NCBI GenBank assembly: GCA_001797815.1
Contig: MGQK01000071.1
Span: 50,168 to 55,896, forward strand
DNA from: Deltaproteobacteria bacterium RBG_13_61_14
GTDB lineage: Bacteria; RBG-13-61-14
DNA: 5,729 bases
Direction: 5' to 3'
Part shown: positions 1-1,927 of the stretch, piece by piece
Layout: every line of letters starts with the position of its first letter
How positions within the stretch are numbered: position 1 is the first letter of the stretch
Position numbers and translations under genes: made by a program
Notes under the pieces: model-generated
What the model saw: the letters and a program-made list of their open reading frames with translations, nothing else
What the model was told of the DNA's origin: nothing
Database searches by the model: none

Positions 1-277
1 AGATCGCGGGGAGCCCCTGGACCAGGAGCCGCTTCATGGCGAACTCGGGCGAAGTGTGGAGAAAGAAGACGCCGGCCGGGACCGCCGGGTCGAGGGCGGG
101 GCGGTACTCCGTGGCCAAGGCCTCCAGGTGAAGGTCGGTGCCGGGCGCGGGCACCAGGATCGGGGTGGAGACCTCCTGGTAGCCGCGGCGCTGAAGGGCT
201 TGCCGGAGCTTTTGCTCCAGCTCCATCCGGCCGAGGTATTTCTTCAAATTCCGCCCTGATGCGGTTGCGTTTTCCAC
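1..277 (-). CDS. epmA: EF-P lysine aminoacylase EpmA (GenX/PoxA/YjeA), N-terminal part, cut by the window edge
   Basis: The family attaches (R)-beta-lysine to a conserved lysine of elongation factor P and is a class II lysyl-tRNA-synthetase paralogue lacking the anticodon-binding domain. Reading the minus strand from about 277, the protein contains NLKKYLGRMELEQKL, then motif 1 RRGYQEVSTPILVPAPGTD, then LHTSPEFAMKRLLVQGLPAI. The 'HTSPEFAMKRLL' block separates EpmA from true LysS. About 92 codons are visible; the full enzyme is about 325 residues, so motifs 2 and 3 lie outside the window. I chose GTG at 277-275 because it places EVSTP near residue 35, close to the E. coli spacing. ATG at 328-326 is in frame and only 3 nt after the upstream stop, but it would translate the short tandem repeat at 293-325. 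No clear Shine-Dalgarno site decides between them. The gene is codirectional with the peptidase gene upstream. Confidence 0.85.
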   Translation of the reverse strand, partial: MENATASGRNLKKYLGRMELEQKLRQALQRRGYQEVSTPILVPAPGTDLHLEALATEYRPALDPAVPAGVFFLHTSPEFAMKRLLVQGLPAI

Positions 278-292
278 CTGATGATGCTCTTC

Positions 293-325
293 ACCCTGAC
301 ACCCTGACACTTGACACCTTGACAC
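293..325. repeat. Short tandem repeat of a 7-8 bp unit (ACCCTGAC / ACTTGAC / ACCTTGAC)
   Basis: Four head-to-tail units are seen: ACCCTGAC (293-300), ACCCTGAC (301-308), ACTTGAC (309-315) and ACCTTGAC (316-323), followed by a partial unit. They fill the gap between the peptidase stop at 332 and the probable epmA start. If epmA began at 328 the repeat would encode a Cys/Ser/Gln-rich leader not expected in the family, so I treat it as intergenic. Confidence 0.7.
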
Positions 326-331
326 CATCCG

Positions 332-868
332 TCACGCCATCTTCACTTCAAACGTCCGCATCCGGACCAGGTCCTGCAGCCGCGCGCGCATCAGCGGGAC
401 CGTGACCCCGAAGACCCGGGCCAGCCTTTTCGCTTCGGCCGAGAGTGATTCCGCGTCCAGGCGCTTTCGCGCCAGCCGGTTGACCATGGGCATGGGCATC
501 AAGAGCTCCGCGGCAAAGTAGTCGGCCTCCCACTCCACCGGGTCGGCCGGCTTCTTGCCGAAGAGCCGGAAGGTGGTGCTGATCCGGCAGACGAACTCCT
601 CGTCCGCGTGCAGGAACCCGTGGCCGATCTCGTGGGCAATGGTGAAGCGCACGGCCGGGCCTTTGCTCTCGACCCGGTAGCGGACCAGGCGCCACTCGCC
701 CTTGACCAGGATCTCGCCGTGGAAGCCCCGGGGCAGGCGGGCGGCTTCGAGCTGGTAATGAGGGAACGCCTCGAAGAAGGCCTGGAGCGAAAAGGGCGGC
801 TCGCGGAAGCCGACCTTCCCCTGGATGTAGCTGACGGTGGAAATGATCTCGTTCTCGCGGTCGCTCAT
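332..868 (-). CDS. ImmA/IrrE-family zinc metallo-endopeptidase (178 aa)
   Basis: This belongs to the COG2856/ImmA-IrrE family, whose characterised members (ImmA of ICEBs1, IrrE of Deinococcus) cleave a cognate XRE-type repressor. The gluzincin-like zinc site is intact: HEIGH at residues 79-83 (numbered from ATG 868) with the preceding hydrophobic FTIA, and a third acidic ligand in WEADYFAAELLMP at about residue 114. An N-terminal helical region (residues 1-30) precedes the catalytic domain, and a helical tail follows it. The ORF is open upstream to ATG 892, but those eight extra codons (MPCPYIGR) come from one arm of the inverted repeat at 878-929, so ATG 868-866 (MSDRENEI) is preferred. Neither start has a well-spaced Shine-Dalgarno site. 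The repressor gene lies directly upstream (stop at 938), the usual arrangement of such pairs. Family assignment is secure; the repressor as substrate is inferred. Confidence 0.9.
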   Translation of the reverse strand: MSDRENEIISTVSYIQGKVGFREPPFSLQAFFEAFPHYQLEAARLPRGFHGEILVKGEWRLVRYRVESKGPAVRFTIAHEIGHGFLHADEEFVCRISTTFRLFGKKPADPVEWEADYFAAELLMPMPMVNRLARKRLDAESLSAEAKRLARVFGVTVPLMRARLQDLVRMRTFEVKMA

Positions 869-877
869 CCTGCCAAT

Positions 878-929
878 GTAGGGGCATGGCATGCGGCTCG
901 ACTGAGCTCGCCGAAGTCCATGCCCCTAC
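878..929. repeat. REP-like inverted repeat between repressor and peptidase genes
   Basis: The arms GTAGGGGCATGG (878-889) and CCATGCCCCTAC (918-929) are perfect 12-bp inverted complements separated by 28 bp. The interior carries a second small inverted motif (GCTCGACTGAGC). From memory, 'GTAGGGGCA...TGCCCCTAC' and 'TTCGGCGAGCTCAGTCGA' belong to intergenic palindrome families spread through many environmental bacterial genomes; I could not check this. The element could form a hairpin in the message between the two codirectional genes and supplies the extra N-terminal codons of the longer peptidase ORF. Confidence 0.75.
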
Positions 930-937
930 CAATCCTC

Positions 938-1384
938 TTAGCGCTTGCCCTGGAACTTGAGGTATTGGAAATACTCGAGGAGCTTTTGCATCAGCTCGCG
1001 GTCGCGGAAGGCGGCCTCCATCATCTCGCGGAAAGCTTCGGCCTGGGGGTGCTGGGTGTGGCGGAGGTAATCCGCAGCCGCGGCCAGGAGGTCGGCTTGA
1101 CTCAGCCGCTTGGAGACCCGGGCGCCCACCCGCCGCACTCCGGCTTCCTCCAACTCGGCCACTGGATCCCGGCCGGTCAAAAGCCATTCCATGGGCCGGC
1201 CGGAGAAGCGGGCCAGGCGAAGGAGCACCGGCGGCGAGGGCATCTCCTTTTCCGCCTCGTAGCGGCTGACCATGGCCTGTTTGATCTCAAGGAGGCTCGC
1301 GAACTCGGCCTGGGGGAGATCGCCCCGGATTTGCCGGATTCGGCCCCCCAAAGTGCCTGAAATTTTTTTGATACGCTCACGCAT
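938..1384 (-). CDS. XRE-family helix-turn-helix transcriptional regulator (148 aa)
   Basis: This is a probable DNA-binding repressor. Residues about 12-68 form an XRE/Cro-CI type helix-turn-helix domain (LGGRIRQIRGDLPQAEFASL followed by QAMVSRYEAEKEMPSPPVLL), with the usual 'Q..FA..L.I.Q..VSRYE.....P....L..LA' pattern, closing with PMEWLLTGRDP. Residues about 90-148 are a helical, charged C-terminal region that would serve for dimerisation. The size is close to DdrO/ImmR-type repressors that are cleaved by ImmA/IrrE peptidases. ATG 1384 is the only reasonable start; it is preceded by an A-rich stretch with no Shine-Dalgarno site. The gene faces away from the nuclease gene over a 45-bp gap containing the palindrome at 1401-1414, its likely binding site. 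The target genes are inferred. Confidence 0.88.
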   Translation of the reverse strand: MRERIKKISGTLGGRIRQIRGDLPQAEFASLLEIKQAMVSRYEAEKEMPSPPVLLRLARFSGRPMEWLLTGRDPVAELEEAGVRRVGARVSKRLSQADLLAAAADYLRHTQHPQAEAFREMMEAAFRDRELMQKLLEYFQYLKFQGKR

Positions 1385-1391
1385 TTTTTTC

Positions 1392-1420
1392 TTGACAAGG
1401 ATACGAATTCGTATTAGTAT
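1392..1420 (+). promoter_or_regulatory. Sigma70-type promoter of the nuclease gene
   Basis: A perfect -35 TTGACA (1392-1397) is followed by a 17-bp spacer and a -10 TAGTAT (1415-1420, 4 of 6 consensus). Transcription would begin near 1427, only a few bases before ATG 1430, so the nuclease message would be leaderless or nearly so. The spacer is largely made of the palindrome at 1401-1414. Confidence 0.7.
1401..1414. promoter_or_regulatory. Perfect 14-bp palindrome, probable operator of the XRE repressor
   Basis: ATACGAATTCGTAT is fully self-complementary and lies between the -35 and -10 elements of the nuclease promoter. A repressor bound there would block RNA polymerase. GATAC half-sites recur nearby: GGATAC at 1399-1404, 1432-1437 and 1439-1444, and the inverted GTATC at 1417-1421. 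The repressor gene starts 17 bp away on the other strand, so the same site could also autoregulate it. The binding protein is inferred from position only. Confidence 0.65.
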
Positions 1421-1429
1421 CTCTCCTGG

Positions 1430-1927
1430 ATGGATACAGGATACCAGAAACCAGCCAAAGGATCAAGTCTGCGCTTTGTTATCGGCCTGGTCCTGTTGGG
1501 GCTGGTCTATACCGTGGGCGTGTGGGCCTCGACACCACCCGGCAAGTTGGTGAGGGTGAAATGGGTGGCGGACGGCGACACGGTGGTGCTCTTGAGCGGT
1601 GAAAAGGTCCGGCTGATCGGCATTGACGCGCCCGAGACCCACCATCCGGAAAAGCCGGTCGAGCCGTTCGGCACCGAGGCGGCTGAATACCTCCGCCAGT
1701 TGGTCGAGGGCAAAGAAGTCCTCCTGGTCCTGGATAAAAAGCGCAAGGACGAATACGGCCGCACCCTCGCCTACCTCTTCCTCGGCGACCTCTTCGTCAA
1801 CGCCCACCTGGTAAAGGAAGGCTATGCCCGAGCGTCCAGCCGAAAACCGAACACGACCTATGTGTCGCTCTTCGTTGAACTCGAAGGCCAAGCCCGTTCT
1901 GCCCAAAAGGGTTTGTGGAAGGATTGA
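1430..1927 (+). CDS. Membrane-anchored staphylococcal nuclease (SNase/thermonuclease) homologue (165 aa)
   Basis: This is a Ca2+-dependent phosphodiesterase-type nuclease fold (SNase/TNase family, OB-fold). Residues 15-34 are a hydrophobic segment (FVIGLVLLGLVYTVGVWAS), a signal anchor or signal peptide, so the enzyme would work outside the cytoplasmic membrane. The catalytic pattern is complete: DGDT at 48-51, RLIGIDAPE at 61-69 and KDEYGRTLAY at 106-115. Arg61, Glu69 and Arg111 correspond to the S. aureus nuclease Arg35, Glu43 and Arg87; Asp50, Asp66 and Thr51 correspond to the metal-site residues. The domain ends in the usual GLW. ATG 1430 is the only start that keeps the anchor, but it has no Shine-Dalgarno site and lies about 3 nt from the predicted transcription start. 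The gene is divergent from the XRE/ImmA pair. Whether it acts on extracellular DNA, uptake DNA or phage DNA cannot be told from sequence. Confidence 0.93.
   Translation: MDTGYQKPAKGSSLRFVIGLVLLGLVYTVGVWASTPPGKLVRVKWVADGDTVVLLSGEKVRLIGIDAPETHHPEKPVEPFGTEAAEYLRQLVEGKEVLLVLDKKRKDEYGRTLAYLFLGDLFVNAHLVKEGYARASSRKPNTTYVSLFVELEGQARSAQKGLWKD

Follow-up and report, generated by a model that had tools for sequence, protein, structure and literature searches.

Pairs of a COG2856 peptidase and an XRE-family repressor are very common, and the locus described here bears on two questions about them: what do most of these pairs target, and what activates the small peptidases that lack a GAF-like domain? In the genome of Deltaproteobacteria bacterium RBG_13_61_14 (G000, an assembly of 4.7 Mb in 132 contigs), such a pair lies next to a divergent gene encoding a nuclease of the SNase family, and we asked whether the former controls the latter. 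The window, i.e. the whole stretch of 5,729 nucleotides that was analyzed (G000:C71:50168-55896), has the following features at this locus.

2-328, minus strand: genX/EpmA-like gene (EF-P lysine aminoacylase), cut by the window edge (TIGR00462, E 3e-17).
332-868, minus strand: gene of an M78/COG2856 metallopeptidase of ImmA size (178 aa; PF06114, E 2e-14; start set by alignment).
878-929, no strand: dispersed hairpin-forming repeat, between the XRE stop and the peptidase start (26 matches in the genome; fold energy).
938-1384, minus strand: gene of an XRE-family repressor (148 aa; PF01381, E 2e-9).
1392-1420, plus strand: sigma-70-like promoter of the nuclease gene (TTGACA, 17 bp, TAGTAT; 10/12 consensus).
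1401-1414, no strand: perfect palindrome ATACGAATTCGTAT, candidate XRE operator, inside the spacer of the nuclease promoter.
1430-1927, plus strand: gene of an SNase-family nuclease (165 aa; PF00565, E 1e-28).

The XRE gene lies directly upstream of the peptidase gene on the minus strand, with the dispersed repeat inside the 69-bp gap between them, and is divergent from the SNase gene, 45 bp away. The three genes called in the initial annotation are real; only the start of the peptidase had to be moved, from 892 to the ATG at 868, as indicated by the alignment to relatives, and the ATG at 892 falls inside the repeat. Besides the SNase, the neighbours of the locus are bacterioferritin, GMC oxidoreductase, genX and FrhB-like genes, with no immune operon adjacent among them, and none of the neighbours that received a Pfam family, over about 19 kb, is a recognised defence gene. 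The genes scanned in these 19 kb include no recognisable integrase, excisionase, relaxase or phage gene. When reading the sequence, we found a clear Shine-Dalgarno motif for the bacterioferritin gene of the window and none for the XRE and SNase genes.

The presence of a repressor/peptidase gene pair, as initially described, is confirmed by the PF01381 match of the XRE and by a peptidase that matches PF06114 (M78, IrrE N-terminal-like) above the cut-off and has all the active-site residues. The latter include the HEIGH motif and the third-ligand motif EWEAD; H79, E80, H83 and E112 are invariant, and the protein keeps all invariant residues of a 19-member alignment of relatives. Its best match in PADLOC is capP (E 2e-23 over the catalytic part, positions 3-138 of 242). 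CapP (7t5t) also comes first in a sequence search of the PDB (E 9e-8), followed by PprI/IrrE, and in a Foldseek search with the structure model (E 1e-7, TM 0.60), followed by IrrE and ssDNA-bound PprI. This model has a mean pLDDT of 90, with low confidence in the loop after HExxH, and terminates after C-terminal HTH-like helices. The GAF-like domain is absent, the protein having 178 aa and the profile match stopping at 138 of 242. Since the CapP profile reaches many ImmA-size proteins, i.e. it also matches generic short ones, including in Bacillus subtilis among the control genomes, similarity to CapP is by itself insufficient to make this peptidase a CapP. IrrE truncated so as to lack the GAF-like domain can still be activated, and this domain is also missing from other small COG2856 proteins that have been studied (PMC7907104).

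A cysteine (Cys94) is found 11 residues after HEIGH, in a putative switch loop. In VapB52, and according to the same paper in CapP as well, a cysteine of this loop ligates zinc and is proposed to move out of the active site when ssDNA binds (PMC13273310). Such a cysteine occurs in the loop after HExxH in 9 of 58 short homologues, as against 12 of 36 homologues of CapP size; it is at +11 in the peptidases of the window and of G002 and at +12 in that of G049, the latter two being the nearest relatives. Its presence in the window peptidase points towards CapP, with a putative role in zinc ligation. Many short ImmA-type peptidases have an aspartate (as in FVDK) where the clade of the window and several CapP-size proteins have the cysteine, and one may speculate that this residue could have a similar zinc-capping role.

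The XRE protein is made of an HTH (residues 11-68) and a helical C-terminal region. In fold searches the HTH resembles the ImmR and P22 c2 repressor domains, and the search with the whole protein was uninformative beyond it. The model of the C-terminal region is weak and its fold uncertain, with helices predicted at 115-127 and 129-146. The CapH model is matched weakly. In ImmR, the cut made by ImmA falls between F95 and M96, in the stretch that links two C-terminal helices (PMC8960796); by analogy, the window XRE would be cut at F126-R127, a candidate site where its last two predicted helices meet. Stand-alone XREs that resemble the window XRE in their C-terminal region occur in all three genomes of our phylum comparison, i.e. 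the window genome G000, G001 and G002 (L002 1471-1902, L016 1456-1929, L017 1447-1926), and their upstream regions differ from that of the window XRE. An operator common to these paralogous XREs was considered and rejected because these regions have no similar palindrome.

Peptidases of this family inactivate XRE repressors under stress, which opens the repressed promoters (PMC10233336, PMC10904395, PMC13373217), and ImmR, CapH and DdrO are reported to be cleaved by such peptidases (PMC8960796, PMC10233336, PMC10904395). By naming ImmA and IrrE, the initial annotation identified the right kind of system, a repressor with the peptidase that cleaves it, and overlooked the closest match, CapH-CapP ('controller of associated pathways'; CapP of Thauera sp. 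K11, PDB 7T5T). The latter resembles the window in the adjacency of the XRE and M78 genes, the catalytic residues, the cysteine in the putative switch loop and a neighbouring gene within the repressor's reach. However, CapP has about 290 aa and a GAF-like domain, whereas the window peptidase is much shorter and lacks it. Moreover, CapH-CapP adjoins an immune operon, and control of the adjacent operon is already described for this system (PMC13373217), whereas the window locus has one SNase gene and an XRE that matches CapH weakly. ImmR-ImmA of ICEBs1 and relatives share with the window the size of the peptidase, the XRE-peptidase gene order and the HTH fold, but they belong to mobile elements, of which we recognised none here, and the loop cysteine, present in the window, is rare in short homologues. 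DdrO-IrrE (PprI) of Deinococcus likewise combines an XRE repressor and an M78 peptidase, but IrrE has the extra GAF-like domain and a regulon of many boxes, whereas the box in the window is single. Finally, the same pair is found in the COG2856-XRE modules predicted to be toxin-antitoxin-like by Makarova et al. 2009 (PMC2701414), where the pairing of XRE with COG2856 is one of the most frequent in the list; the third components there are mostly RelE or PIN toxins, whereas the window has an SNase. A fused XRE-M78 antitoxin (PADLOC RmrA) was rejected, as the matches are weaker and the window proteins are separate. The window pair is of a known kind (COG2856/XRE: ImmR-ImmA, CapH-CapP, DdrO-IrrE), one that probably works like ImmR-ImmA or CapH-CapP. 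We did not file it as CapH-CapP because it lacks the GAF-like domain and the immune operon, nor as a mobile-element module because no such genes were recognised. We found no description of an SNase target of such a pair in the open-access literature searched.

The nuclease has a full SNase domain, and its alignment to staphylococcal nuclease bears out the complete active site that had been noted, with the DGDTV, RLIGIDAPET and DEYGR motifs kept. As for the membrane anchor that had been proposed, there is one N-terminal hydrophobic segment (approximately residues 16-34, read from the sequence), which could be an anchor or a signal peptide cleavable between VWA and S. The nuclease appears exported. 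The full domain, the catalytic motifs and the N-terminal export or anchor segment are those of the SNase/thermonuclease family (PF00565), its PADLOC match is to a generic SNase-containing model, and apart from its regulator neighbours it has nothing notable for the family. The window genome has three further SNase-family genes (contigs C88, C46 and C45), with no XRE or M78 gene nearby.

The one link that may place the nuclease under the control of the pair is the overlap of a candidate operator with its promoter. The latter (TTGACA at 1392-1397, TAGTAT at 1415-1420) is the only promoter-like site found in 880-2050, where 0.1 are expected in shuffles. Since the -10 ends at 1420 and the SNase ATG is at 1430, the transcript would be nearly leaderless. 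The perfect palindrome reported between the -35 and the -10 is indeed there, with arms of 7 and no loop. When the 45-bp gap was shuffled 20,000 times with its dinucleotides kept, only 34 shuffles reached a perfect loopless 7+7 palindrome (250 with loops up to 8). The palindrome is thus above chance for this gap, although five stretches sampled from the window genome have a perfect 14-bp palindrome about every 10 kb. It has a single exact copy in the genome, and copies with two mismatches are as frequent across the genome as those of the control pattern, which led us to reject a regulon with a common palindrome. We regard it as a plausible operator of this one locus and not as the box of a regulon. 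The hairpin repeat on the other side of the XRE gene (GTAGGGGCATGG...CCATGCCCCTAC) is a dispersed REP/MITE-like element: a 75-bp stretch has 26 matches in the genome, the best being 89-92% identical over at least 50 bp, and the hairpin folds at -35.8 kcal/mol (z -4.8).

Four comparisons speak against a conserved trio. G002, an uncultured delta proteobacterium MAG (contig CAIUDS010000543.1), has genX (L004 486-1496), as the window does, next to a peptidase that is 48% identical to the one of the window and has no XRE upstream; no SNase was found at E 1e-3 in this assembly, which is 87% complete. In G001 the SNase and the XRE are at separate places, there is no peptidase, and the SNase has neither partner nearby. 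Around the peptidase, the one conserved feature that we saw is genX, which directly follows it in both the window genome and G002. The CapP profile has matches in 80 genomes, and of these only the window genome has an SNase within 10 kb of the peptidase (about 31 kb separate the pair that comes next); the trio is in none of the 79 others. We also scanned 59 genome and 15 viral loci of peptidase relatives: many have an XRE directly upstream, and none of the 74 has an SNase adjoining the peptidase, or the trio. Similarly, no XRE or peptidase lies within about 1.5 kb of any of the 29 nearest SNase homologues retrieved (41-54% identity), as far as their contigs extend; the scans of both sets of loci used home-made profiles built from few sequences, which can miss weak homologues. 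One locus (L074) was rejected as a second SNase-M78 case: its SNase has 90 aa and is 2 kb from the peptidase, with intervening ORFs, no XRE between them and phage-like surroundings. Other short XRE-peptidase pairs adjoin genes of an HNH endonuclease (L043), an ExoI-like exonuclease (L045) and a UvrD-like helicase (L063), which are possibly uncharacterised damage-response or defence operons. DNA-processing neighbours thus recur beside such pairs; SNase does not.

On this synteny (G002, the 79 other genomes, the 74 peptidase loci and the 29 SNase loci), we reject a conserved three-gene XRE-M78-SNase system. The initial annotation had suggested such a system, with a search for conserved synteny as its check and a nuclease not conserved beside the pair as one of two grounds for refuting it; in a sample with few close relatives, the search found the trio in no relative and the nuclease beside no other such pair, which is the outcome named as refuting. 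The locus seems to be made of known parts brought together locally, and not to be a new system.

Can the pair control its neighbour all the same? The promoter overlap speaks for such control, and the fact that the trio is not conserved speaks for a recent or incidental coupling. The best explanation, which we consider about evenly poised between right and wrong, is that the XRE and ImmA/CapP-type module functionally controls the divergent nuclease. A repressor bound at 1401-1414 would silence the SNase gene, and probably the XRE gene too. The peptidase would become active under stress, the most likely signal being ssDNA from DNA damage, or else zinc or redox stress, and would cut the repressor in its C-terminal helices; the repressor dimer would then fall apart and the promoters open. 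By analogy with the known systems, cleavage of the XRE followed by derepression is the likely mechanism. The nuclease gene would be a target picked up locally, and its product would work outside the cytoplasm, e.g. in nucleic-acid scavenging. This explanation is favoured by the CapP-like peptidase with its intact residues, by the XRE upstream in many relatives and by a palindrome that is single and lies in the nuclease promoter. Against it are the SNase that is not conserved, the G002 peptidase with no XRE beside it, the hairpin repeat that separates the XRE and peptidase genes, the paralogous XREs without a similar palindrome and the uncertain C-terminal fold of the XRE. A narrower version, in which DNA damage or ssDNA triggers the repressor cleavage, the exported nuclease is the dedicated output and the switch uses a minimal peptidase with a cysteine-switch-like residue and no GAF-like domain, is rather unlikely.

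The alternative that survives best, and that we hold to be a tentative possibility of some weight, is that the genes are accidental neighbours. The XRE-peptidase pair would be self-contained and autoregulated through the palindrome, with targets elsewhere or none, and the SNase would be an ordinary exported nuclease on which any effect is incidental. The trio is indeed not conserved, neither an XRE nor a peptidase gene is near the further SNase genes (three in the window genome and one in G001), and with a gap of 45 bp an overlap with the promoter is almost unavoidable. However, the palindrome sits exactly between the -35 and the -10 of the nuclease promoter and is unique in the genome. This uniqueness makes a wider regulon acting through this box unlikely.

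A defence or damage-response unit, in which a CapH-CapP-like controller would unleash the nuclease against phages or to kill the cell, is improbable: CapP is the closest match and other short pairs lie beside DNA-processing genes, but the nuclease appears exported, its PADLOC match is generic and the Pfam-assigned neighbours are not recognised defence genes. We disfavour even more strongly, as very improbable, a remnant of the ImmR-ImmA immunity module of a mobile element, since the ImmA size of the peptidase and the ImmR-like HTH are set against the lack of recognised mobile-element genes among the scanned neighbours and a genX adjacency that, being kept in the sister genome G002, suggests a long-standing chromosomal position of the peptidase.

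With one pair, one candidate operator and one candidate target, the locus is a compact test case for this very common class of modules. If the nuclease is not controlled by the pair, it cautions against inferring function from a single divergent neighbour. If it is, the known outputs of these modules would widen to an exported nuclease, and, were the switch reading true, a CapHP-like controller would be coupled to extracytoplasmic nucleic-acid degradation, not to immunity or to the release of a mobile element.
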